DNA of 64,000 bases from Paraburkholderia sp. (lineage in GTDB: Bacteria; Pseudomonadota; Gammaproteobacteria; Burkholderiales; Burkholderiaceae), in contig JAITTX010000306.1 of NCBI GenBank assembly GCA_031286755.1, forward strand, positions 16,259 through 80,258, given 5' to 3'. Below are positions 45,659 to 62,974 of this stretch, piece after piece (the first letter of the stretch is position 1; each line of letters opens with the position of its first letter). The notes under the pieces were generated by a model. That model saw only the letters and a list, made by a program, of their open reading frames with translations, was not told where the DNA came from and did no database searches. Both the position numbers and the translations under genes were made by a program.

Positions 45659-45725
45659 TCCGGCAGCGCAAGCTGGGCACCAGCCGGCGCCCTTCATTCC
45701 AGACACTGAACTCGACAGGCCCTTC

Positions 45726-47105
45726 ATGGAAGCAATACTGAACGCGCTCAAGGACGCGCTCGGCGCGGACGCGGTACGAACCGGCAACGCTATCGAAAGC
45801 CGCTACCTTGGCGACTGGAGCGCGAAGTCCGCGCACGCCCCGCTCGCGGTGGTGCTGCCCCGTGATACTCAGGAGGTGGCCACCGCGCTGCGGTTGTGCA
45901 ACGCGGCCCGGCAAAGCGTCGTGCCGCAGGGCGGCTTGACGGGCCTCGCGGGCGGCGCTGTGCCCACATCGCGCGACGTTTGCATTTCGCTGGAGCGCAT
46001 GACCGGCATCGAAGAGATAGACCGCTCCGCCGCCACCATGACCGTGCGGGCCGGCACCACACTGCAGACGATCCAGGAAGCCGCCGACGCCGCTGGCTTC
46101 GAGTTCCAGCTCGACCTCGGCGCGCGCGGCACCTGCCAGATAGGCGGCAATCTCGCGACGAACGCGGGCGGTATCCGCGTCATTCAGTCGGGCACCGCGC
46201 GGGATCAGGTATTGGGCCTCGAAGTCGTGCTCGCGGATGGCAGCGTGCTGAGCGCCATGGGAAAGATGATCAAGAATAATACCGGCTACGATTTGCGGCA
46301 TCTGTTCATCGGTTCGGAAGGCACGCTGGGCATCATTACCCGCGCCGTGCTGCGGCTCGCCCCTCGTCCCGCCGCGCGGCATACGGCGCTGTGCGCGCTT
46401 TCCGGATACGAAAGCGCGGTGGCGCTCCTGCAGACGCTAAAGGCGCGCCTCGGCAGGGAGCTCAGCGCGTTCGAGCTCATGTGGCCGGACTTCTTCGAGA
46501 TGGGCGTGGCGTTCTCCCGCAGCCAGCAGGCGCCGTTTTCCACCGCGTACCCGCTCTATGCGCTAATCGAGCATACGTCCTGCGCCGACGACCGGCACGA
46601 CAGTCTCGCGCAAACGCTGGCGAACCAGCTCGAAGCGGGCGGGCTGCTCGACGCGATTATTTCGCAGTCCGCAGCGCAATCGCAGTCGTTATGGGAAATA
46701 CGCGAAGCGACGGCGGAGTTTCCCGTCAAGCTCACTCCCATCAATTTCGACATCAGCATTCCGATTGGGGACATCGGCCGCTTCGTCGACGCCTGCCGCG
46801 CTGAGTTCCAATCGCGCTGGCCCGCCAGCCGCTCGTTGTTCTTCGGCCATATCGGCGACTCGAATCTGCACGTTACCGTGGATGGCCGGTCGATTCCCGG
46901 TGTCGCGCCCGACGCGGTCGAACAGGGTGTATACGATCTCGTCAGGGCGTTTCAGGGGTCGGTTTCCGCCGAGCATGGCATCGGCATGCACAAGCGCGCG
47001 TTTCTTGGCTATACGCGCAGCGAGGCGGAGCTTGCGTGCATGCGGTCGATCAAGCATGCGCTCGATCCCAACGCCATTCTGAATCCGGGGAAGCTGCTTT
47101 CGTGA
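45726..47105 (+). CDS. FAD-binding oxidase/dehydrogenase, GlcD/D-2-hydroxyacid family
   Basis: VVPQGGLTGLAGGAVPTSRDVCISLERMTGI...LDLGARGTCQIGGNLATNAGGIRVIQ...MIKNNTGYDLRHLFIGSEGTLGIITRAVLRL...GSVSAEHGIGMHKRAFL. Confidence 0.93.
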   Translation: MEAILNALKDALGADAVRTGNAIESRYLGDWSAKSAHAPLAVVLPRDTQEVATALRLCNAARQSVVPQGGLTGLAGGAVPTSRDVCISLERMTGIEEIDRSAATMTVRAGTTLQTIQEAADAAGFEFQLDLGARGTCQIGGNLATNAGGIRVIQSGTARDQVLGLEVVLADGSVLSAMGKMIKNNTGYDLRHLFIGSEGTLGIITRAVLRLAPRPAARHTALCALSGYESAVALLQTLKARLGRELSAFELMWPDFFEMGVAFSRSQQAPFSTAYPLYALIEHTSCADDRHDSLAQTLANQLEAGGLLDAIISQSAAQSQSLWEIREATAEFPVKLTPINFDISIPIGDIGRFVDACRAEFQSRWPASRSLFFGHIGDSNLHVTVDGRSIPGVAPDAVEQGVYDLVRAFQGSVSAEHGIGMHKRAFLGYTRSEAELACMRSIKHALDPNAILNPGKLLS

Positions 47106-47116
47106 CCCGGCGCCGC

Positions 47117-48511
47117 TCAGCCCGGCAACACCTTGCGCGGGTTGAGCACGCCGAATGGATCCAGTGCGCGCTTGATCGAGTGCATGGCCGCGATCTCGTC
47201 CGCGCTGCGCGTATGGTCTAGCACGTCGCGCTTTTTCGCGCCAATGCCGTGCTCGGCCGACACCGATCCGCCAAAGTCGCGCACGATGCCATAGACGAGC
47301 ACCTCGATGTCCTCGACGGTCTGCGCATCCGCATCGGCCACGTGCACGATCAGATGCAGGTTGCCGTCGCCGAGGTGGCCGTAGGCCAGCACGATGCTGC
47401 CAGGCCAGGTGGCACTCACCTCGCGTTCGCACAGTTGCGCCGCCGCGCCGATATCGGCGATCGAAAAGCTGACATCGAAGGCCACGAGACCTGGCAGCGT
47501 CACCGGAAAGTCGGCCGTCGAATCGCGCACGCGCCAGAACATCTGCGCATCGGCGCGCGACTGCGCAATGGCCGCATTCTCGATCACGCCGTTTTCCAGC
47601 ATCGTCGCGAGAAAACCTTCAAAGCGCTCCTGATGCGCGCAAGCCTGAGATCCCGTCGCTTCGAGCAGCACGTAGTAGCCGTGCCGGCTCCCGAGTGGCC
47701 GCCTCAGCCCCGCGACGCTCCCCGTCACGTAGTCAACGAAGCTCGGCCACATCACCTCGAATGCGGAAACCCCCGCTTCGAGATCACGCTGCGCGCATTC
47801 GAGCAACCGCGTCACCGCCGCATAGTCCGCAAGCCCGCACCACGCCGTCGCCACGGCGCCGGGGCGCGGCCGCAGGCGCAAGACCGCTCGCGTGATCACG
47901 CCGAGCGTGCCTTCGCTGCCGATCATCAGGTTGCGCAGATCGTAGCCGGTGTTGTTCTTGACCATGCGATGCAGACCGCCGATCACGCTGCCGTCGGCGA
48001 GCACGGCCTCCACATCGAGCACGTGCTCGCGCGCCATGCCGTAACGGATCACGCGTACACCGCCCGCGTTGGTGGCCAGGTTGCCGCCGATCGTGCAACT
48101 ACCGCGCGCGCCCAGGTCGAGCGCGAACATCAGGCCCGCAGCCTCGGCGGCCTGCTGAACGGCTTCGAGCGTCGCGCCGGCCTCCACCGTGACGGTGCCC
48201 GAAATCGTATCGACGGCACCGATGGCGTTCATGCGTTCGAGGCTCAGGGCTATATCGCCGCGCGACGTGCATGCCCCGCCCGCGAGCCCCGTGAGCCCGC
48301 CCTGCACGACAACCGGCTGCCTGTGGTGGTTGCAGATCGACATGATCTCGCTGACCTGCGCCACACTGCGCGGCCGCGCAAGCGCGAGCGGCACCTCCCC
48401 GCGCAGCCCGCTCCAGTCCTCCGTGCGGCGCTCCGCGATCCCCTCACCCAGGCTGACGATGTCCTCCCCGAGCACGCTCATGAGCGCCGCGATTACTTCG
48501 TTCGATGACAT
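47117..48511 (-). CDS. FAD-binding oxidase/dehydrogenase, GlcD/D-2-hydroxyacid family (paralog of 45726-47105)
   Basis: MSSNEVIAALMSVLGEDIV...VVVQGGLTGLAGGACTSRGDIALSLERMNAIG...LDLGARGSCTIGGNLATNAGGVRVIRYGMAREHVLDVEAVLADGSV; start at 48511 inside a longer fused ORF. Confidence 0.92.
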   Translation of the reverse strand: MSSNEVIAALMSVLGEDIVSLGEGIAERRTEDWSGLRGEVPLALARPRSVAQVSEIMSICNHHRQPVVVQGGLTGLAGGACTSRGDIALSLERMNAIGAVDTISGTVTVEAGATLEAVQQAAEAAGLMFALDLGARGSCTIGGNLATNAGGVRVIRYGMAREHVLDVEAVLADGSVIGGLHRMVKNNTGYDLRNLMIGSEGTLGVITRAVLRLRPRPGAVATAWCGLADYAAVTRLLECAQRDLEAGVSAFEVMWPSFVDYVTGSVAGLRRPLGSRHGYYVLLEATGSQACAHQERFEGFLATMLENGVIENAAIAQSRADAQMFWRVRDSTADFPVTLPGLVAFDVSFSIADIGAAAQLCEREVSATWPGSIVLAYGHLGDGNLHLIVHVADADAQTVEDIEVLVYGIVRDFGGSVSAEHGIGAKKRDVLDHTRSADEIAAMHSIKRALDPFGVLNPRKVLPG

Positions 48512-48543
48512 AGAAATCTCCCGTTGCCGGCATTGAACGCGCG

Positions 48544-49878
48544 TCAGCGCGCGACACTCGCGCGGCGTGGCGTGTCCGGCACGAACGCGAGCAGCAGCGC
48601 GCCCACGAGCGACACGCCGCTGAACATATGCATAGCGCCGTTCATGCTGTGCGTGGCGGTCTTGATCCAGCCGACGAGGTAAGGCGAGAACAAACCCGGC
48701 AGGTTGCCGACCGAGGTGATGAGCGCGATGGCCACTGCCGATGCGCGGCCTTGCCAGGCGGCGGTCGGCAGGTTCCAGAACACGGGCAGCGAGGCCATGA
48801 GGCCGAACATCGCGAGACTCAGCACGACCATGGAGAGGCCGACACTCGATGCCACCAACGGGCTCGCAGCCCAGCCGAGCGCCGCGAGCATCGAAAGCAC
48901 CATGAGCATCGTCCGCGTGTGCTGACGACGGTCGACCCAGCGCGCGACGAACCCCATCGCAACGACAGCAACGCACCACGGAATCGTCGAGAGCATGCCG
49001 ATCGCAAGCGGGTCCTTGATACCCGAGACCTTGATGATGGTGGGCAGCCAGAACACGAAACCGAAAAACGACACGCCGTAGCAGCCATAAATCGCCGAGA
49101 AAACCCATACGAGTGGACGCGCCAGCACCTGGCCGACCCGCACCTTCCGGACCGTGGCGCGCTCCGCTTCGATCAGGGCGTGCACCTGAGCTTTTTCGTC
49201 GGCGCTCAGGAAGCGCGCCTGCTGCGGCGAAGCGGGCAGCCATGCGAGCGTCGCGAGCCCCAGCACGATGGACGGCACACCTTCGATCACGAACAGCCAT
49301 TGCCAGCCTGCGAGCCCGTGCAATCCATTCATGCTGTGCAGGATGACGCCGGACACCGGCCCGACGGTCACGCCCGCCACCGCGATCGCCGTCATGAAGA
49401 TCGCGGTCATGCGTGTGCGCCAGGCTCGCGGAAACCAGTCGGTGAGGTAGTAGATGATGCCCGGAAAGAAACCGGCCTCGGCCACGCCAAGCAGCAAACG
49501 CATCGTGTAGAACTGCGCGGGGGTATGCACGAACAACGTGCCCGCCGAAACGGCACCCCAGGAAATCATGATGCGCGCGATCCAGCGCCGCGCACCGTAA
49601 CGCTTCATCAGCAGATTGCTTGGCACTTCGAATAAAACATAGCCGACAAAGAAAACCCCAGCGCCCATGCCGTAGACGAGTTCCGAAAAACCGAGGTCGT
49701 CGAGCATCTGCAGCTTGGCGAACGCGATGTTCATGCGGTCGACCTGAGCGATGAGATAGCAGAGAAACAGGAACGGCATGAGCCGCCACGCGATCTTGCC
49801 GAACAACGCCCGCCGCATATCGGCCGGGTCGGCCACGTCCATCGCCGGCGTGGCGGCCAGGTTCGGCCCGGGGTTCAT
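48544..49878 (-). CDS. MFS transporter, anion:cation symporter (ACS) family
   Basis: KIAWRLMPFLFLCYLIAQVDRMNIAFAKLQMLDDLGFSELVYGMGAGVFFVGYVLFEVPSNLLMKRYGARRWIARIMISWG; ATGA overlap with the aldolase gene. Confidence 0.93.
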   Translation of the reverse strand: MNPGPNLAATPAMDVADPADMRRALFGKIAWRLMPFLFLCYLIAQVDRMNIAFAKLQMLDDLGFSELVYGMGAGVFFVGYVLFEVPSNLLMKRYGARRWIARIMISWGAVSAGTLFVHTPAQFYTMRLLLGVAEAGFFPGIIYYLTDWFPRAWRTRMTAIFMTAIAVAGVTVGPVSGVILHSMNGLHGLAGWQWLFVIEGVPSIVLGLATLAWLPASPQQARFLSADEKAQVHALIEAERATVRKVRVGQVLARPLVWVFSAIYGCYGVSFFGFVFWLPTIIKVSGIKDPLAIGMLSTIPWCVAVVAMGFVARWVDRRQHTRTMLMVLSMLAALGWAASPLVASSVGLSMVVLSLAMFGLMASLPVFWNLPTAAWQGRASAVAIALITSVGNLPGLFSPYLVGWIKTATHSMNGAMHMFSGVSLVGALLLAFVPDTPRRASVAR

Positions 49879-50636
49879 GCGCCGTCTCCAGGCTGCAGGC
49901 GCAAGGCCCGCGCACGGGCGTCGCGCAGCCCTTGCGCGACCAGTCCGATATCGTTGGCCGCGACAGCCAGGCGGTAGCCATCCGCAAATGCACGGCTGGC
50001 CGCCTCGGCGTCGTTCGTGAATAGGCCACACGGCAGACCGTGCGCTTGCGCGGCGCGCAGCACGCGCGCGCAGTCGCGCCCGATCAGTTCGGCGTCGGCG
50101 GTGCCACGCGACAGGCTCAGGTCACCGGTGCCGATGAACAGGAAATCGAGTCCCGGCACCGCCGCGATCGCCTCCACGTTTTCAACGCCCTTCACCGTCT
50201 CGATCAGCGCGCCGACCACCACCTGCCGCCCGCACTCCACCATCGCCTCCACACCGCCGGCCAGCATGCGCACACCGCCCGCCGAGCGCACTCCGAGCGG
50301 CGGATAGTGACTGGCGGCAACCGCGCGCCGCGCGTCATCCGCGCTCTCGATCAGCGGCACCAGCACCGCGGCGGCCCCCGCATCGAGCGCCGCGCCAATC
50401 TGGTGCGCCGAGTGATCCGCACAGCGCGCTATCACGGGCACCTGGCGGCCAATCGCGCCTAGCGCCGCCTCGAGCGTGCCGCGCTCCCACAAGCCGTGCT
50501 GCAGGTCGAGCACGATCCCGCCAGGACGCACCCGGGCCGCATACTCCGCGATTGCCGGGCTGCCGAGCGCGAGCCAGGCGAGATCCACGGGCGCACTACC
50601 CGCCAGTGCGGGTCTGAACGATGCAAACAGCGTCAT
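49875..50636 (-). CDS. HpcH/HpaI-family class II aldolase
   Basis: VDLAWLALGSPAIAEYAARVRPGGIVLDLQHGLWERGTLEAALGAIGRQVPVIARCADHSAHQIGAALDAGAAAVLVPLIESADDARRAVAASHYPPLGVRSAGGVR. Confidence 0.92.
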   Translation of the reverse strand: MTLFASFRPALAGSAPVDLAWLALGSPAIAEYAARVRPGGIVLDLQHGLWERGTLEAALGAIGRQVPVIARCADHSAHQIGAALDAGAAAVLVPLIESADDARRAVAASHYPPLGVRSAGGVRMLAGGVEAMVECGRQVVVGALIETVKGVENVEAIAAVPGLDFLFIGTGDLSLSRGTADAELIGRDCARVLRAAQAHGLPCGLFTNDAEAASRAFADGYRLAVAANDIGLVAQGLRDARARALRLQPGDGA

Positions 50637-50660
50637 GCGGATTGACTCCCTGATTGAGCA

Positions 50661-50674
50661 TTCTGAATTCAGAA
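50661..50674. promoter_or_regulatory. Operator-like palindrome A: TTCTGAATTCAGAA
   Basis: Perfect 14-bp palindrome about 25 bp upstream of the minus-strand HpcH aldolase start. Confidence 0.75.
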
Positions 50675-50843
50675 CTACGCGACCAGTCGAGAGTAGGTGC
50701 AGAAAATCGGGCTGTCAAATCCCATTGTTCGCAACACGGAATTTCGCGGGTAAACGCTAGATGATGGCGGTTTTCCCAGCTTGACCTCGGGTTCGTACCT
50801 ATTTCGTCAGGCAGGCCGGCAGCTAGACTTCGCTGCTATGGAA

Positions 50844-50857
50844 TTCTGAATTCTGTT
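50844..50857. promoter_or_regulatory. Operator-like site B: TTCTGAATTCTGTT
   Basis: Same TTCTGAATTC core as site A, about 55 bp upstream of the plus-strand operon starting 50912. Confidence 0.6.
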
Positions 50858-50911
50858 TTTGAAAAATGAAACGGCCGCACCGGCGCCGCGCGAGCGGCAA
50901 GGGAGAATGTC

Positions 50912-51601
50912 GTGGAAGTCGTGCTGTTTTTGACCTGGAGAACGCCGCACCACTGCGGAGCGCCACCGCTTGCGGCCTATGCACAGTTCCTCGCGGGCGT
51001 GCCTGGCGCCACGCGGGCACGCCTGCACGTGCCCGCCACGGCAACGGATCCGTACCTGAACGACAGGGACGCACCCAGCCTCGTGGCGCAGGTTTACTTT
51101 CGGGAGCTCGACGCGCTCGAATCCGCCTGCGGCCCCAACGGTGCGCTGCAGGAATTGATCAGCCGGCGCGCGCACCGCTGGAACGCCGAGGCAGTCCTGA
51201 GCCAGCAGGCCATGGCCGTGCGGGCATTTGGCGTGCCGCAGCCAGGCGGCGCAGCCGCATGCACCTATCTCGTCGCCTATCACGGCGAGCCGAACGACTT
51301 CGATGCGTGGCTCGGCCACTATCGCGCGAACCATGTCCCGCTGATGTTGCGCCTGCCGGGCTTGCGAGCGCTGGAGATCCACACGCGGCTCGACTACGTG
51401 AGCGCGCTGCCGGCCGCGCGGGAAACCTGCGTGCAGCGCAATCAGGTCGTGTTCGATAGCGCGAGCGCACTCACCGCTGCGCTGAATTCTCCGGTGCGCC
51501 ACGAAATGCGCGCCGACTACGAAGCCTCGCCGCCGTTCGCCGGACACAACACGCACTACCCCATGACGAGCCACGCGGTGAGTGGCATCGCGAACCCCTG
51601 A
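50912..51601 (+). CDS. EthD-like domain protein
   Basis: GTG start after AAGGGAG; two repeat-like halves with YLVAYHGEPNDFDAWLGHYRANHVPLMLRLPGLRALEIHTRL (dimeric alpha/beta barrel EthD-type). Confidence 0.65.
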   Translation: MEVVLFLTWRTPHHCGAPPLAAYAQFLAGVPGATRARLHVPATATDPYLNDRDAPSLVAQVYFRELDALESACGPNGALQELISRRAHRWNAEAVLSQQAMAVRAFGVPQPGGAAACTYLVAYHGEPNDFDAWLGHYRANHVPLMLRLPGLRALEIHTRLDYVSALPAARETCVQRNQVVFDSASALTAALNSPVRHEMRADYEASPPFAGHNTHYPMTSHAVSGIANP

Positions 51602-51621
51602 AACCACCGGGACCCAAGACC

Positions 51622-52725
51622 ATGTCCGCTCCCCTTTCCAATCCCATGCACGGCCCCTCCGCGTTCAAGATCGGCGTGTTCTCGGCCAATGCCGACGGCG
51701 GCCTGTCCTTCACCACGGTGCCCGAGCGCTGGACCGCGCAGTGGGACGATGTCGAGCGCGCGGCCATCATCGCCGATCGTGGCGGCTTCGACTTCTTCCT
51801 GCCGATCGCGCGCTGGAAGGGGTTCGGCGGCGCGATGAAAGTGCGCGAGTGGTCGTTCGAAACCTTCACGTTCGCGGCCGCGCTCGCGGCGGTCACCACG
51901 CGCATCGCATTGTTCATGACCGTGCACGTCCCGCTCGTGCACCCGCTCTACGCGGCGAAGGCGCTCGCGACCGTCGACCACATCAGCCATGGCCGCGCGG
52001 GCCTGAACATCGTGTGCGGATGGAATCCCGACGAGTTCGCCATGTTCGGCATGCGCCTTGGCGAGGCGCCCTATGAGCAGGCCGCCGAATGGAGCGAGAT
52101 ACTCGTGCGCCTCTATAACGAGCCGGCGCCGTTCGACTACGACGGACGCTATTACCAGCTTCGCCAGGCCGTGAGCAGGCCGGCCGCGCTGCAAAGCCCG
52201 CGGCCGGTCACGATGAACGCGGCCTTCGGGCCGCCGGGCCGGGACTTCGCGGCCCGCCATTGCGACTACCTGTTCACGACCTTCACCGATCTCGAGACGG
52301 GCCGGCAGCACGTCGCCGATGTGCAGGCGCGCGGCAGCGCGGCGGGGCGCGAAATCGGCGTCTATACGGTCGCGCACGTGGTCTGCCGCGAGACCGAGCG
52401 CGAGGCCCGCGAGTACTACGATCACTATGCGCGCCTTCACGCCGACAACGGCGCGCTCGACTATCACATGAGCCGCAAGCAGGACTTCTCGCGCAGCCAC
52501 GACGATGCGGCCTACCGGCTGCACCGCCAGCGCTTCGCGGCAGGGGGCGGCAGCTATCCGCTCGTCGGCACGCCCGAGCAGATCGTGGCGGAAATGGTGC
52601 GCATGGAGGCGAGCGGCTTTCGTGGCGCGGCGCTCACGTTCGTGAACTACGCCGACGAGTTGCCGTTCTTCTGCGAGCGCGTGATCCCGTTGATGCGCGA
52701 GGCCGGCCTGCGGGTGCCGGCATGA
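51622..52725 (+). CDS. LLM-class flavin-dependent monooxygenase, RutA-like
   Basis: FKIGVFSANADGGLSFTTVPERWTAQWDDVERAAIIADRGGFDFFLPIARWKGFGG...ETFTFAAALAAVTTRIALFMTVHVPLVHPLYAAKALATVDHISHGRAGLNIVCGWNPDEFAMFG. Confidence 0.92.
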   Translation: MSAPLSNPMHGPSAFKIGVFSANADGGLSFTTVPERWTAQWDDVERAAIIADRGGFDFFLPIARWKGFGGAMKVREWSFETFTFAAALAAVTTRIALFMTVHVPLVHPLYAAKALATVDHISHGRAGLNIVCGWNPDEFAMFGMRLGEAPYEQAAEWSEILVRLYNEPAPFDYDGRYYQLRQAVSRPAALQSPRPVTMNAAFGPPGRDFAARHCDYLFTTFTDLETGRQHVADVQARGSAAGREIGVYTVAHVVCRETEREAREYYDHYARLHADNGALDYHMSRKQDFSRSHDDAAYRLHRQRFAAGGGSYPLVGTPEQIVAEMVRMEASGFRGAALTFVNYADELPFFCERVIPLMREAGLRVPA

Positions 52726-53291
52726 AGCGCGGCTCGCTGCCGGACGCCGCGCCCCCGCCCGACGCGCTCGCCCACGCATGCGCCGCCGTGGACGCGACGA
52801 CGTTTCGCCAGGGCATGCGTCACCTCGTCGGCGCCGTCAATGTGCTGGCGGCACGTCTGCGGGACGGCGCCCCGGTGGGACTCACGGCCACCGCCGTCTG
52901 CTCGCTGTCCGCTGAGCCGCCCGCGCTGCTCGCCTGCGTGAACCGGGCGAGCACGCTCGGCAACGCGATTGCGATCGGCATGGACTTCTCTGTCAACGTG
53001 CTGGGCGCTCATCACGAGGCGCTCGCGCGCGCCTTTGGCGGCATGGCGGGCATCGACCAGCGCGGACGCTTCGCGCTCGGCGAATGGCACGCCGGCAAGG
53101 ATGGGCCGCCGCTGCTCGCCGACGCACTCGTGGCCTTTGTCTGCCGTGTCGTGCAAACCGTCGAGCACGGCAGTCATTGTGTCGTGATCGGCCAGGTCGA
53201 GCAGGTGGCGCTACCGGCAATCCATGGGGCCATCAGGAGCAACCTTGTCTACCGCAACGGAAGCTTCGGCCGTTTCCCGGAGCCGGTCTGA
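52722..53291 (+). CDS. Flavin reductase (RutF/HpaC family)
   Basis: FRQGMRHLVGAVNVLAARLRDGAPVGLTATAVCSLSAEPPALLACVNRASTLGNAIAIGMDFSVNVLGAHHEALARAFGG; ATGA overlap with LLM gene. Confidence 0.93.
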   Translation: MKRGSLPDAAPPPDALAHACAAVDATTFRQGMRHLVGAVNVLAARLRDGAPVGLTATAVCSLSAEPPALLACVNRASTLGNAIAIGMDFSVNVLGAHHEALARAFGGMAGIDQRGRFALGEWHAGKDGPPLLADALVAFVCRVVQTVEHGSHCVVIGQVEQVALPAIHGAIRSNLVYRNGSFGRFPEPV

Positions 53292-53471
53292 GACGGTTGC
53301 GCGGCTTGCTCCAGCCTCCGTTCGCGCGGCGGCAACGCGCTGCCCGCACGCGACGCGTATCGAGGCGGCGATGCCCGCGTTCATCGGCATGACCGAAGCA
53401 CCGTATTTCGGATTACCAGGAAAAATTGTGACTGTGATCGACAAATGGGCCGCCACCCCGGCCCACCCGGT

Positions 53472-54641
53472 TCATTTCGCGAGCGTGTGCACCACCTGAC
53501 CGATGAAAGCCTCGCAGGCCGCGAGCTGCGCGAGGCTCACATACTCGTCGGGCTTGTGTGCGACCTCGATCGAACCCGGCCCGCAAACGATGCTCGGCAC
53601 GCCAACCGCCTGAAAAAACGACGCCTCGGTCCCATAGGCAACGCGCTGAGGCGCGCGCGCTCCGAGCAGGCCCAGTGCGAGCGCCTGAAGCGCCGCGCTG
53701 TCGTTTTCATCCAGCGCGGGGATCGCGCCGATGCAATCGAACTCGATCGCCGCCTGCGCATGGCGCGCACGCATGCGCGGCAAGACATCGTGCAGCGCGT
53801 ACGCGCGCACGGCCTCGAAAAAGCGCTCCGGCGCGACGCCCGGCAAATACCGGTACTCGAATGAAAACTCGCAACTCGCCGGAATGATGTTCATGCCATT
53901 GCCGCCGCTGATCGTGTTGGCCGAGATCGTCGAGAACGGCACGTCGAAGCCCTCGATGCGCGGCCCGCTACGCGCCTCCTCCTCGCTCAGGCGTTGAATA
54001 TGCGTGATCACGTTGGCGGCATACTCGATCGCGTTGACGCCCGCTGGCGTGAGCGACGAATGGGCCGCGCAGCCCGTCACCGTGCAGCGGTAGATGCGCC
54101 CGCCCTTGTGCGCAGCCACCACCTGCATGCCGGTCGGCTCGCCGACGATGCAGCCGGACGGTTCGATGCCGGCATCGCGCATGTCGGCCAGCAAACCGGG
54201 GATGCCGAGGCAGCCAACCTCCTCGTCGTAGCTCAAGGCGAGGTGCACCGGCTCGCGCAAGCGCGCCGCGCCGAGCGTCGCGGCCTGCGCGAGCGCCACG
54301 CCGAGAAAACCCTTCATGTCGCAAGCGCCGCGCCCATACAGCCGGCCCTCGCGGGTCGTCGCGCGAAACGGGTCGCTTTGCCAGACCTGGCCGTCCACGG
54401 GCACCACGTCGGTGTGCCCCGAGAGCACCACGCCGCCAGGACCGTCGCCGAAACTCGCGAGCAGGTTCGCCTTCGAACGCGCCGCGTTGTAGTCGAGCCG
54501 CACGCGCGCGCCATGGGCTTCGAGGCGTCCGGCTGCCCATTCGATCAGCGCGAGATTGGAATTGCGGCTCACCGTGTCGAAGCCGATCAAAGCCGAAACG
54601 CACTCGATGACTTCCTGCGAAGGCCCACCCTGCTGTGCCAT
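53472..54641 (-). CDS. M20-family amidohydrolase (ArgE/acetylornithine deacetylase-like)
   Basis: GGVVLSGHTDVVPVDGQVWQSDPFRATTREGRLYGRGACDMKGFLGVALAQAA...SYDEEVGCLGIPGLLADM...SSLTPAGVNAIEYAANVI. Confidence 0.92.
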   Translation of the reverse strand: MAQQGGPSQEVIECVSALIGFDTVSRNSNLALIEWAAGRLEAHGARVRLDYNAARSKANLLASFGDGPGGVVLSGHTDVVPVDGQVWQSDPFRATTREGRLYGRGACDMKGFLGVALAQAATLGAARLREPVHLALSYDEEVGCLGIPGLLADMRDAGIEPSGCIVGEPTGMQVVAAHKGGRIYRCTVTGCAAHSSLTPAGVNAIEYAANVITHIQRLSEEEARSGPRIEGFDVPFSTISANTISGGNGMNIIPASCEFSFEYRYLPGVAPERFFEAVRAYALHDVLPRMRARHAQAAIEFDCIGAIPALDENDSAALQALALGLLGARAPQRVAYGTEASFFQAVGVPSIVCGPGSIEVAHKPDEYVSLAQLAACEAFIGQVVHTLAK

Positions 54642-54667
54642 ACCGTCTCCTGCTTCAAATTGAAATC

Positions 54668-54681
54668 TATTGAATTCAGTT
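54668..54681. promoter_or_regulatory. Operator-like site C: TATTGAATTCAGTT
   Basis: TGAATTCAG core shared with A and D; about 30 bp upstream of the minus-strand M20 gene. Confidence 0.65.
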
Positions 54682-54859
54682 TATCCGGCACCTCGCCAGG
54701 GTGTCAATCGTGCCTGGTATTTGCCCCTATGCGACATGGCGTGTAGCCGCAAAACCACAATTTAAACATGTATTTCAACGACTTATTCGATTGCACCCAG
54801 TTACGCCGATGAATTGTTTTTCGTTGACGCTGCAAATTTAAGTTCATATATTCGCATTC

Positions 54860-54873
54860 AACTGAATTCAGTT
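54860..54873. promoter_or_regulatory. Operator-like palindrome D: AACTGAATTCAGTT
   Basis: Perfect 14-bp palindrome about 25 bp upstream of the MFS gene at 54898. Confidence 0.75.
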
Positions 54874-54897
54874 TAATCAACTCACGGGCAGAAACCA

Positions 54898-56220
54898 ATG
54901 GACACCAACCGACCCACCCTTGCCGCGCACGCGCTTCCAGTCACCGAGGACGCGTTGTTCAGCAAGGTCGCCTGGCGCCTGCTGCCGATCCTGTTCGTGA
55001 GCTATGTCGTCGCCTACATCGACCGCGTCAACGTTGGCTTTGCGAAGTTGCAGATGCTGGGCGACCTGCACTTCTCGGCCCAGGTCTATGGCTTCGGCTC
55101 GGGCATTTTCTTCGTGGGCTTCCTGCTGTTCGAGATCCCCAGCAATCTGCTGCTCTATCGCTTCGGCGCGCGCGCGTGGCTCGCTCGCATCATGATCACG
55201 TGGGGTCTCGTCTCCGTGCTCACCCTGTTCGTGCGTACGCCGATGCAGTTCTATGCGGCGCGCTTCCTGCTGGGCGTTGCGGAGGCCGGCTTTCTTCCCG
55301 GCGTCGTCTATTACCTTTCGCAGTGGTTTCCGCCGCATCGCCAGGGTCGCGTGATGGCGCTGTTGATCACGGCCGCCGCAGCCGGTGGCGTGATCGTCGG
55401 GCCGCTCTCGGGCTGGATCATGGACGCGTTCTCGAACTCGGCAACCCTGCGCAACTGGCAATGGCTGTTCCTGCTGCAGGGCCTGCCCGCGATGGTCGTC
55501 GCCTACCTGCTATGGCGCGTGCTGCCCGATCGCCCCGACACCGTCGAGTGGCTCGACGCCTCCGAAAAGGCCGTGCTCCAATCGCTCGTCAGCGGCACGC
55601 AACATCATCTTCCGCGCAAAGACAAGATTGCCGAGGTACTGCGCTCCGCGAACGTCTGGTGGCTCGCGCTCGTCCTGCTCGCGCTGAACCTGGGCATCTA
55701 CGCGGTCATCTTCTGGACCCCGACCATCATCCGCGACGCGGGCATCACCAACCTCAGCCACATTGGCTATCTCGCGGCGCTACCTTATGTGGCATCCGCT
55801 GCCGCCATGCTGCTGCTCGGCCGCTCATCCGACTTCTTCGGCGAACGCCGCTGGCACCTCGCACTGTCGTGCCTCGGCGGCGCGGTCGGGCTCGTGCTGA
55901 CCGCGTTCGCCGCTTCGACCCCCTTGCGCATCGCCGGCGTGACCCTCGCGACGGCGATGTTCATCGGCAGCACGCCGCTCGTCTGGGCGCTGGGCGGCAA
56001 CTTCATGAGCGGGCGCGCGGCCGCCACCGGCTACGCGCTGATGAACGCGATAGCGGCGCTCGGCGGCCTGTTCGGTCCCTACGCGATGGGTCTTGCACAG
56101 GATCTCAGCGGCAGCATCTCGATCGCCGTGCTTGCGATCGCCGGATGCTCGGTGCTGGGCGCACTTTGCGTGCTGGCACTGCCTGCTGAGCAACACACCG
56201 CGAAAAACACCACACATTAG
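54898..56220 (+). CDS. MFS transporter, ACS family
   Basis: FSKVAWRLLPILFVSYVVAYIDRVNVGFAKLQMLGDLHFSAQVYGFGSGIFFVGFLLFEIPSNLLLYRFGARAWLARIMITWG. Confidence 0.94.
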   Translation: MDTNRPTLAAHALPVTEDALFSKVAWRLLPILFVSYVVAYIDRVNVGFAKLQMLGDLHFSAQVYGFGSGIFFVGFLLFEIPSNLLLYRFGARAWLARIMITWGLVSVLTLFVRTPMQFYAARFLLGVAEAGFLPGVVYYLSQWFPPHRQGRVMALLITAAAAGGVIVGPLSGWIMDAFSNSATLRNWQWLFLLQGLPAMVVAYLLWRVLPDRPDTVEWLDASEKAVLQSLVSGTQHHLPRKDKIAEVLRSANVWWLALVLLALNLGIYAVIFWTPTIIRDAGITNLSHIGYLAALPYVASAAAMLLLGRSSDFFGERRWHLALSCLGGAVGLVLTAFAASTPLRIAGVTLATAMFIGSTPLVWALGGNFMSGRAAATGYALMNAIAALGGLFGPYAMGLAQDLSGSISIAVLAIAGCSVLGALCVLALPAEQHTAKNTTH

Positions 56221-56249: not shown

Positions 56250-57365
56250 ATGACAGACACAATAATATGGAGTCCGAAAATGATGGCTTGCCGTCGCGTT
56301 TCCTGCGTGGTGGCACTAACGGCGGCGTTCGGCTTTTGCCAATCCGCACGCGCGGCCAGCAGCCTGACGCTGTATGGGATCGTCGATGCCGGCCTCACGT
56401 GGGCCAGCAACGAAGGCGGCGCGCAGAATATCTTCCTCGACACGGGGGTCATGCAAGGAAACCGGCTCGGCTTTCGCGGCGTGGAGGATCTCGGCGGTGG
56501 CTGGCAAGCCAACTTCCAGCTCGAGAACGGATTCTCGATAGGAACCGGAGCGGCTGGACAGGGAGGGCTGCTGTTCGGCCGCCAGGCATGGGCGGGCCTC
56601 TCCTCGACCGACTACGGCAGTCTCAAGCTCGGCCGCCAGTACGACTTCTTCACCGACACGCTGGAAGCCTATTACACGCCAACCTGGTCGGCGGGCGGTT
56701 ATGCGAACAACCCGCTCGATAACGATCGCATGAGCGGGCAACGCGTGAACAACGCGGTCAAGTATCTGTCGCCGGCATTCGGCGGCGTGCAGTTCGGCGC
56801 GATGTACGGCTTCTCGAACCTGGCCGGCAATTTCAACGGCCCCGGGCGCACGTACAGCTTCACGGCCACCTGGACGCGCGGCGGCTTTTCGGCTGGTGCG
56901 GCCTATACCGAGGTCAGCGGCACGACGCTCGACATTGCGCCGCTCGTCGGCAGCAGCACGCCGCAACTGATCGGTGGGCGCTACCTGCGCGACTGGGGCG
57001 CGGGCATGAGTTACGCGCTGAATTCACTCACGTTCTACGGCGTCTACTCGCAAGCGCTCTACGTGGCCCGGGACGGGCAACTGCAGAACCAGATGTTCCG
57101 CAACTATCAGGCAGGCGTGGCATGGCAAGTCCGCCCGGACCTGACGGCCGGCCCCGGCTACGGACTCACAACGCTCGGGCCGAAAAAATACCACCAGTTG
57201 AACCTCACAATCGACTACTTCCTCTCGAAGCGCAGCGACGTCTACGCTCAGGCCATCATCCAGCACGCCAGCGGCGCGGGCGCGACCGCCGACGTCATCA
57301 GCCTGCCCGCGTCGAGCAGCGCGGACCAGATACTCCTGCGCGTGGGCTTGCGCGAGAAGTTCTGA
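56250..57365 (+). CDS. General porin (Gram-negative trimeric type, OmpC-like)
   Basis: ASSLTLYGIVDAGLTWASNEGG...GNRLGFRGVEDLGGGWQANFQLENGFSIGTG...GLLFGRQAWAGLSSTDYGSLKLGRQYDF...ILLRVGLREKF. Confidence 0.94.
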   Translation: MTDTIIWSPKMMACRRVSCVVALTAAFGFCQSARAASSLTLYGIVDAGLTWASNEGGAQNIFLDTGVMQGNRLGFRGVEDLGGGWQANFQLENGFSIGTGAAGQGGLLFGRQAWAGLSSTDYGSLKLGRQYDFFTDTLEAYYTPTWSAGGYANNPLDNDRMSGQRVNNAVKYLSPAFGGVQFGAMYGFSNLAGNFNGPGRTYSFTATWTRGGFSAGAAYTEVSGTTLDIAPLVGSSTPQLIGGRYLRDWGAGMSYALNSLTFYGVYSQALYVARDGQLQNQMFRNYQAGVAWQVRPDLTAGPGYGLTTLGPKKYHQLNLTIDYFLSKRSDVYAQAIIQHASGAGATADVISLPASSSADQILLRVGLREKF

Positions 57366-57433: not shown

Positions 57434-58111
57434 ATGACGGCTGCGCAAGGCAAATCACGGCGCGGCGAGCGCTCGGAAACGCTCGTCGACACGATCTACC
57501 GGGACACGCGACAGCGCCTGAATCAGGGCGAATGGCGCCCCGGCGACCGGCTGCTCGACTACGAGATCGGCGAGCGTTTCGGTTGCACGCGCATGCCCGT
57601 GCGCCAGGCATTGCTCCGGCTCGTCAACGAAGGATTGCTCAACGGCACGACGCGCGGCTTTCAGGTGCCGGTCATGACCGACGCGATGGTGCGCGACGTG
57701 TTCGAATTGCGCCGCATTCTCGAGCCGGCCGCCGCCGCGCTCGTGGTGGCGACAGCGGATCACAAGCAATTGCACGCGGCCCTGAGCAAGGCCATCGACC
57801 TCGCCAAAGTAGCGATGACGCACAACGACCCGGCGCTCATGTTCAGCGCGAACGCAAGCTTTCGCCATGCATGGCTGCAATGCGTGCGCAACGAGCGCCT
57901 CGTCAGCATGATCGCCATGTCGGCGGACCACGCCAATCAGGTGCGCTTTTCGAACACCCAGGACACCGCGAACTTTGCGCGGACCGTCGCGGCCCTCGAG
58001 CAATTGAGCGAGGCGTTGACGAGCGGCGACGCCGAGCGTGCGCGCGGCGTCATGCACACATTCTTGCTCGCGGCGGAAGCCGCCTATTTCGAGCGTCGGC
58101 TCAAAATCTGA
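57434..58111 (+). CDS. GntR-family regulator, FCD/FadR type
   Basis: SETLVDTIYRDTRQRLNQGEWRPGDRLLDYEIGERFGCTRMPVRQALLRLVNEGLLNGTTRGFQVPVMTDAMVRDVFELRRILEPAAAALV. Confidence 0.92.
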   Translation: MTAAQGKSRRGERSETLVDTIYRDTRQRLNQGEWRPGDRLLDYEIGERFGCTRMPVRQALLRLVNEGLLNGTTRGFQVPVMTDAMVRDVFELRRILEPAAAALVVATADHKQLHAALSKAIDLAKVAMTHNDPALMFSANASFRHAWLQCVRNERLVSMIAMSADHANQVRFSNTQDTANFARTVAALEQLSEALTSGDAERARGVMHTFLLAAEAAYFERRLKI

Positions 58112-62275: not shown

Positions 62276-62974
62276 TCATTCTCGCGATGCCGGCGATTCG
62301 AGAAATTCGATGATCTGGGGAACCGTCGATTCGATATGCGCACGCAGCGCCTGCTCGGCCTGCACGGGGTCGCGCGTGCGCAGCGCGTCGATCAGGATCT
62401 GGTGTGCGTCGCGCGCGCGCTTGCGCCGGAACGTCGCCTGCTCGATCCACAGGCGCATGGGGCCTTCGATCAGCGTGTAGAGCGAGAGAATCTGCTGATA
62501 CAGGCGCGTGCGGCCGCTGATCTCGCACAGGTATTCATGAAACGCGCAGTGGCGCTGCACCCAGGTGTCCGTGTCGCCGACGCAGGCGTCCATGTCTTCC
62601 AGCAAGCGCCCGAGTTTCGCGAGGTGCGCTTCGGTGCAGCGCGGCGCGGCCACGCGCATGGCGAGCCCCTCGAGCGCGATGCGCATGTCGAAGATGTCCT
62701 GGATCTCGTCCACGGAAAGGCCGCGCACGATCGCGCCGCGATTGGGGCGCTGGATCACCAGCCCCTCGCCGTGCAGCCGCCGCAGCGCGGCGCGCACCGG
62801 CATGCGGCTCATCGAGAGCGCTTCGGCAACGCTCTCCGCCACGATGCGCTGGCCCGCCGCGTAACGGCCTTCGATGATCGCCTCCAGCAGGAAACGATAA
62901 GCCTCTTCCTCGGCGGACAAGGCCAGGCCGGCTGTGCTGCGGGCGTGAGTGACGGCCATGGTGCGGTGCGACAT
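62276..62974 (-). CDS. GntR-family regulator, FCD domain
   Basis: EEEAYRFLLEAIIEGRYAAGQRIVAESVAEALSMSRMPVRAALRRLHGEGLVIQRPNRGAIVRGLSVDEIQDIFDMRIALEGLAMRVAA. Confidence 0.93.
   Translation of the reverse strand: MSHRTMAVTHARSTAGLALSAEEEAYRFLLEAIIEGRYAAGQRIVAESVAEALSMSRMPVRAALRRLHGEGLVIQRPNRGAIVRGLSVDEIQDIFDMRIALEGLAMRVAAPRCTEAHLAKLGRLLEDMDACVGDTDTWVQRHCAFHEYLCEISGRTRLYQQILSLYTLIEGPMRLWIEQATFRRKRARDAHQILIDALRTRDPVQAEQALRAHIESTVPQIIEFLESPASRE

Follow-up and report, generated by a model that had tools for sequence, protein, structure and literature searches.

Repressors of the FadR/FCD type, such as DgoR of Escherichia coli (PMC7674646), combine a GntR winged helix with an FCD domain, are encoded inside the cluster that they control, and act at inverted repeats over the promoters of transport and catabolic genes. 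The same features are found in a 64,000-nucleotide stretch of a Paraburkholderia sp. draft genome (contig JAITTX010000306.1, positions 16,259 to 80,258), called here the window, in which four palindromes, A to D, are very probably the docking sites of the adjacent GntR-type repressor, GntR1, as far as the sequence can tell. The system is a new example of an ordinary bacterial gene switch, and a search of the literature on the motif, on FCD palindromes in Paraburkholderia and on the gene set found no description of it. We give a probability of about 0.86 to the reading, taken with its full model, that WWCTGAATTCAGWW serves as the operator for a GntR/FCD repressor subfamily present in several Burkholderiales. 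This reading is preferred because the sites are rare, co-occur with the regulator and overlap predicted promoters, and because the recognition helix is identical in two paralogs.

The comparison with described systems also brings out differences. The FadR-subfamily operator consensus, TNGTNNNACNA (PMC2230225), is common but not obligatory; the position counts of the present operator give WWCTGAATTCAGWW, whose core, CTGAATTCAG, does not fit it, a misfit that is not decisive for membership. Short dyad-symmetric operators in the promoters of adjacent catabolic genes are a trait of the FCD (FadR) subfamily; an earlier, sequence-only reading of the window had invoked it, and the pattern is indeed present in the sequence. 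A shared operator, used by two GntR paralogs at several promoters, is already known from the GntR1/GntR2 pair of Corynebacterium glutamicum (PMC2230225), and such sharing is predicted here. However, that pair governs a gluconate regulon in an actinobacterium and its sites fit TNGTNNNACNA within 1-2 mismatches, whereas the Paraburkholderia paralogs are only 46% identical to each other. The best sequence match in the PDB is McbR (4p9f), likewise a GntR/FCD protein (profile match over residues 22-166, E=4e-15), but it is distant and has a different recognition helix.

Rarity and reach of the palindrome

The four palindromes lie where the sequence-only reading had put them, and all are intergenic:

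Operator A, 50661..50674: TTCTGAATTCAGAA, perfect palindrome, intergenic, upstream of the HpcH/HpaI aldolase operon
Operator B, 50844..50857: TTCTGAATTCTGTT, upstream of the operon for EthD, luciferase-like monooxygenase and flavin reductase
Operator C, 54668..54681: TATTGAATTCAGTT, upstream of the M20 hydrolase gene
Operator D, 54860..54873: AACTGAATTCAGTT, upstream of MFS-porin-gntR
GntR1, 57434..58111, + strand: GntR/FCD regulator by Pfam, 225 aa, recognition helix CTRMPVRQALLRL

That reading had also placed them 25-60 bp upstream of four start codons, and the distances measured from site end to start codon agree: 25 bp for A (HpcH aldolase, 50636, -), 54 bp for B (EthD, 50912, +), 27 bp for C (M20 hydrolase, 54641, -) and 25 bp for D (MFS transporter, 54898, +). 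A and D are perfect 14-bp palindromes, again as claimed, while B and C are each off at one core position; A is one of only four exact copies of WWCTGAATTCAGWW in the genome.

How rare is such a site? A strict motif was defined as the AT-flanked CTGAATTCAG core with no more than 1 mismatch in the core, the full form being WWCTGAATTCAGWW. The window holds 4 such sites, against a mean of 0.03 and a maximum of 1 in shuffled sequence, and all of them fall in the intergenic DNA that makes up 10% of its length. The genome-wide scan that had been proposed as a check was run by pattern searches of the 6.66 Mb draft and returned 7 sites, against 1 for the reversed control pattern. Four are the window sites, contig C340 holds two more, and the last (C280:27575) falls within a coding frame; copies of the motif are thus not scattered over coding sequence. 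A partial match that the sequence-only reading had flagged near 2449 does exist in coding sequence (2444-2457, CCTTGAATTCAGTA), and its left AT flank is missing. Three exact core sites were set aside: two in coding sequence (C64:2723 and C150:7881) and one upstream of a glyA-like gene (C396:12453), all without AT flanks.

The motif also keeps company with the regulator in other genomes. Of 61 genus genomes, 11 encode a GntR of the same type (E below 1e-40), 12 hold the exact 14-mer, and 10 have both; in other words, the exact motif is found in 10/11 genomes with the regulator and in 2/50 without it (Fisher p=7.8e-9). Most exact genus sites, 24 of 28, have a gntR of this type no more than 15 kb away. 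A 25th, in genome G011, lies 52 kb from the only such gene of that genome, at the orthologous aldolase/EthD divergon, where no gntR of this type was found within the 14 kb examined; this distance indicates a trans-acting factor. The sole genus genome with the regulator and no exact site (G024) carries four sites with one mismatch, at the promoters where they would be expected.

Outside this sample, GntR1 alone as a query of the contigs of named genomes gave no matches, but an alignment query succeeded and yielded 33 named loci whose regulator carries the helix CTRMPVRQ or one near it. Two are from Alcaligenes and are GntR1 orthologs (75% identity); the others, at 39-48% and outside the GntR1 branch, belong to Paraburkholderia, Caballeronia, Pandoraea, Robbsia, Herbaspirillum, Eoetvoesiella and further Burkholderiales. 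None of the 33 is without a core site of at most one mismatch, if one locus (L115) is counted whose site has relaxed flanks and lies just upstream of gntR. No sites were found at the locus of a Rhizobiales homolog (L145, 33% identity, helix ISRMPVREAL), and the remaining distant loci, with other helices, gave a single match, inside a coding frame. The co-occurrence in related genomes, which the sequence-only reading had proposed as a check, is seen both within the genus and among the named loci.

A census of all palindromic decamers in the intergenic DNA of 36 loci singles out the same sequence: CTGAATTCAG has 62 copies in 29 loci, the next commonest palindrome has 5, and other palindromes of CTGAATTCAG composition average 0.12, counts that, like those of co-occurrence, are not independent, as sites and loci share descent. 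The coding sequence of the census loci holds 1 copy. Sites are also found at the promoters of unrelated genes, those for an aminotransferase, a porin, an SDR protein and a protein of the SMP-30 family. Since these promoters are not homologous, common ancestry of a single promoter does not account for the spread: the motif goes with the regulator to different promoters.

Could the four palindromes nevertheless be chance EcoRI-containing palindromes of AT-rich intergenic DNA? Under a loose criterion (CTGAATTCAG with 2 mismatches) the window shows no excess (20 against 16.7 expected), as chance would have it. The rarity in the genome, the co-occurrence with the GntR and the 62-to-5 margin over all other palindromes speak against such an origin, which is refuted by the genome-wide count together with the palindrome count and whose probability is close to nil.

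Two paralogous regulators and two modules

GntR1 has an N-terminal GntR winged helix-turn-helix domain (PF00392, 47.7 bits against a cut-off of 27) and a C-terminal FCD domain (PF07729, 55.7 bits against 24.3). Its closest, and only close, paralog in the genome is GntR2, encoded on contig C340 and likewise a GntR/FCD regulator by Pfam; all remaining matches have E no better than 5e-12. The two C340 sites are perfect and lie between gntR2 and a second HpcH aldolase gene. The motif search and the protein search each led to C340 separately, and thus converge independently on one locus. Of the FCD GntRs that similarity searches recovered from the genome, only GntR1 and GntR2 have the helix CTRMPVRQALLRL in common. 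The two types form clearly separate branches of the tree.

Rarity and co-occurrence give strong support to the earlier proposal that GntR1 binds all four window sites, but since its recognition helix is identical in both paralogs, GntR1 may share these sites with GntR2; the acting protein at each site could be GntR1, GntR2 or both. The single four-site regulon also proposed is supported for its four sites and would be larger than claimed: as predicted from sequence, it comprises at least six, four in the window and two at C340.

Which regulator, then, acts at which site? One answer would be that A and B are under GntR2, alone or with the work split between the paralogs, and that C and D answer to GntR1, in which case the window GntR would not have a single regulon of its own. 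In relatives, the aldolase/EthD divergon is paired with regulators of the GntR2 type, and in Alcaligenes the sites linked to gntR occur only at the M20/MFS2 divergon, with GntR1 alone; there, the closest match to the luciferase-like monooxygenase has only 40% identity. The separate branches of the two types point in the same direction. Against this stand the identical recognition helix, the overlap in sequence between the site classes, and a cluster of P. fungorum (L132, 1-20618), in which both window modules stand together under one regulator of the GntR2 type, so that one protein can serve both. We regard divided control as a serious possibility with somewhat less than even odds; it would refine the preferred explanation and is compatible with WWCTGAATTCAGWW as the operator. 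In the window, the two modules are joined under one predicted operator. The P. fungorum cluster also carries genes for an aminotransferase, a kynureninase-like protein, IorAB-like proteins, an amino acid permease and a Cyclase-family protein.

Alternatively, the palindromes might belong to a different regulator of the window, for instance the FCD GntR at 62276-62974, which is a GntR/FCD protein near the sites. Its recognition helix, however, is MSRMPVRAALRRL and not CTRMPVRQALLRL, and the motif-bearing loci of relatives were found through the GntR1/2 type; this alternative is very improbable. The gene itself (- strand) adjoins an amino-acid ABC transporter and a gamma-glutamyltransferase-like gene, and no CTGAATTCAG site was found at its genes.

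The effector pocket of the paralogs may be unusual as well. In FCD proteins of the TM0439 type the metal ligands include the histidines H134, H174 and H196 (ligand residues are named in PMC4746285 and PMC7674646). When GntR1, GntR2 and their relatives are aligned with further FCD GntRs of this Paraburkholderia genome, R, L or M, and F stand at the FH, EH and C-terminal H positions, respectively, a departure from the usual pattern of the FCD subfamily. With these histidines replaced, a metal-free FCD pocket is likely for the GntR1/GntR2 subfamily. A fuller picture can be offered only tentatively, as less likely than not: an FCD repressor subfamily devoid of the metal triad, with a non-canonical operator and two diverged paralogs that keep the same helix, would bring two modules of separate history, of which one is shared with Alcaligenes, under one operator, possibly in response to two signals.

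Promoter layout and mode of action

Promoters were predicted as sigma-70 consensus matches aligned on the operator, so that the transcription starts are predicted by sequence rather than mapped. At 60 of the 88 sites the best -10 element starts between -22 and +2 of the operator, where shuffles give 18.4 +/- 3.9. In the most frequent class, the operator's first four bases double as the last four of the -10 (TAATCT, TATTCT, TAAACT). Three promoters were predicted in the window:

50690..50718, - strand: predicted promoter of the aldolase operon; TTGACA (50713-50718), 17 nt, TACTCT (50690-50695); A starts 15 nt after the -10
54678..54707, - strand: predicted M20 promoter; TTGACA, 18 nt, TAAACT; C overlaps the last 4 bases of the -10
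54824..54852, + strand: predicted MFS-porin-gntR promoter; TTGACG, 17 nt, TATATT; D starts 7 nt after the -10, at about the predicted transcription start

An operator that overlaps the -10 or just follows it, as at these three sites, implies repression, which is the likely mode of action of the GntR proteins on this layout. Operator D precedes MFS-porin-gntR, whose third gene is gntR1, and negative autoregulation of gntR1 through D is therefore implied.

A number of points weigh against this picture. Some FCD regulators activate, CitO being an example (PMC4746285), so that repression is not certain; one class of Caballeronia sites has its best promoter match on the downstream side; and the sigma-70 search found no convincing -35/-10 at B. 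The first two would suit the palindromes being activator sites of the same GntR instead of repressor operators. Most sites, and three of the four in the window, nevertheless overlap the -10 or lie at or after the predicted start, positions from which activation by contact with the polymerase is not expected, and we consider activation unlikely. To these points are added that each site may answer to either paralog and that, as already said, common descent makes the counts non-independent. Finally, at the level of the order, isolated exact motifs occur without this GntR (the motif is present in 46/398 genomes, mostly once each), and five more distant GntR homologs lack the motif. The lone order-level motifs were treated as background or as sites of other regulators. 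Five genomes of another family (f30, g35), G089, G253, G342, G400 and G451, have one TTCTGAATTCAGAA each and no GntR of this type; this is possibly a conserved site of another regulator.

Genes behind the operators and the putative pathway

The genes that would be controlled from the four window sites are the following:

49875..50636, - strand: HpcH/HpaI aldolase, first gene behind A
48544..49878, - strand: MFS transporter, second gene behind A
47117..48547, - strand: FAD-linked D-2-hydroxyacid dehydrogenase-like oxidase, third gene behind A
50912..51601, + strand: EthD-family protein (TIGR02118), first gene behind B
51622..52725, + strand: luciferase-like (RutA/SfnG-like) flavin monooxygenase, behind B
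52722..53291, + strand: flavin reductase (RutF/HpaC-like), behind B
53472..54641, - strand: M20 hydrolase, ArgE/acetylornithine deacetylase-like, behind C
54898..56220, + strand: MFS transporter (anion:cation symporter type), first gene behind D
56250..57365, + strand: outer-membrane porin (Porin_4), second gene behind D

The clusters of relatives add an aminotransferase, kynureninase-like and IorAB-like enzymes, an amino acid permease and a Cyclase-family protein. Taken together, this gene set suggests the catabolism of an amino-acid-derived or other organic acid via 2-oxo and 2-hydroxy acids. As a guess at the substrate, one can think of an aromatic or other amino acid degraded via its 2-oxo acid.

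From these elements a course of events can be proposed, in which binding, dimer contacts, repression, induction and the pathway are all inferred. GntR1 and GntR2 would bind WWCTGAATTCAGWW as dimers, with one protomer per half-site, and from the six intergenic sites (four in the window, two on C340) they would block RNA polymerase. An organic or amino-acid-derived acid would enter through the porin and the MFS transporters, bind the FCD domain and free the repressor from the DNA. Derepression would then turn on uptake (porin, two MFS transporters), deacylation (M20), oxidation (the luciferase-like monooxygenase with its flavin reductase, and the FAD-linked hydroxyacid dehydrogenase) and aldol cleavage (HpcH). 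Site D would also govern gntR1, closing a loop of negative autoregulation.

What is gained from such a model? A GntR subfamily acquires a predicted operator, target genes and a likely mode of action, and a set of recurring genes (aldolase, luciferase-like monooxygenase, EthD, hydroxyacid dehydrogenase, M20 hydrolase, transporters and porin) is tied into one putative pathway. Because the motif is so rare, it may be used to list the members of the pathway in any genome bearing the regulator; such lists would help toward the substrate, for which the P. fungorum cluster is a good starting point. The reading of a single window also appears able to recover a true regulon.

Two further observations deserve mention. 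Between two operators of a Caballeronia-type cluster lies a gene (L071:9434-9961, + strand) for a 175-aa protein that has no Pfam or NCBIfam match. In the window, the genes at 45684-47105 (+) and 47117-48547 (-) encode FAD-linked hydroxyacid oxidases of the same family and stand tail to tail, and only the second belongs to the predicted regulon.

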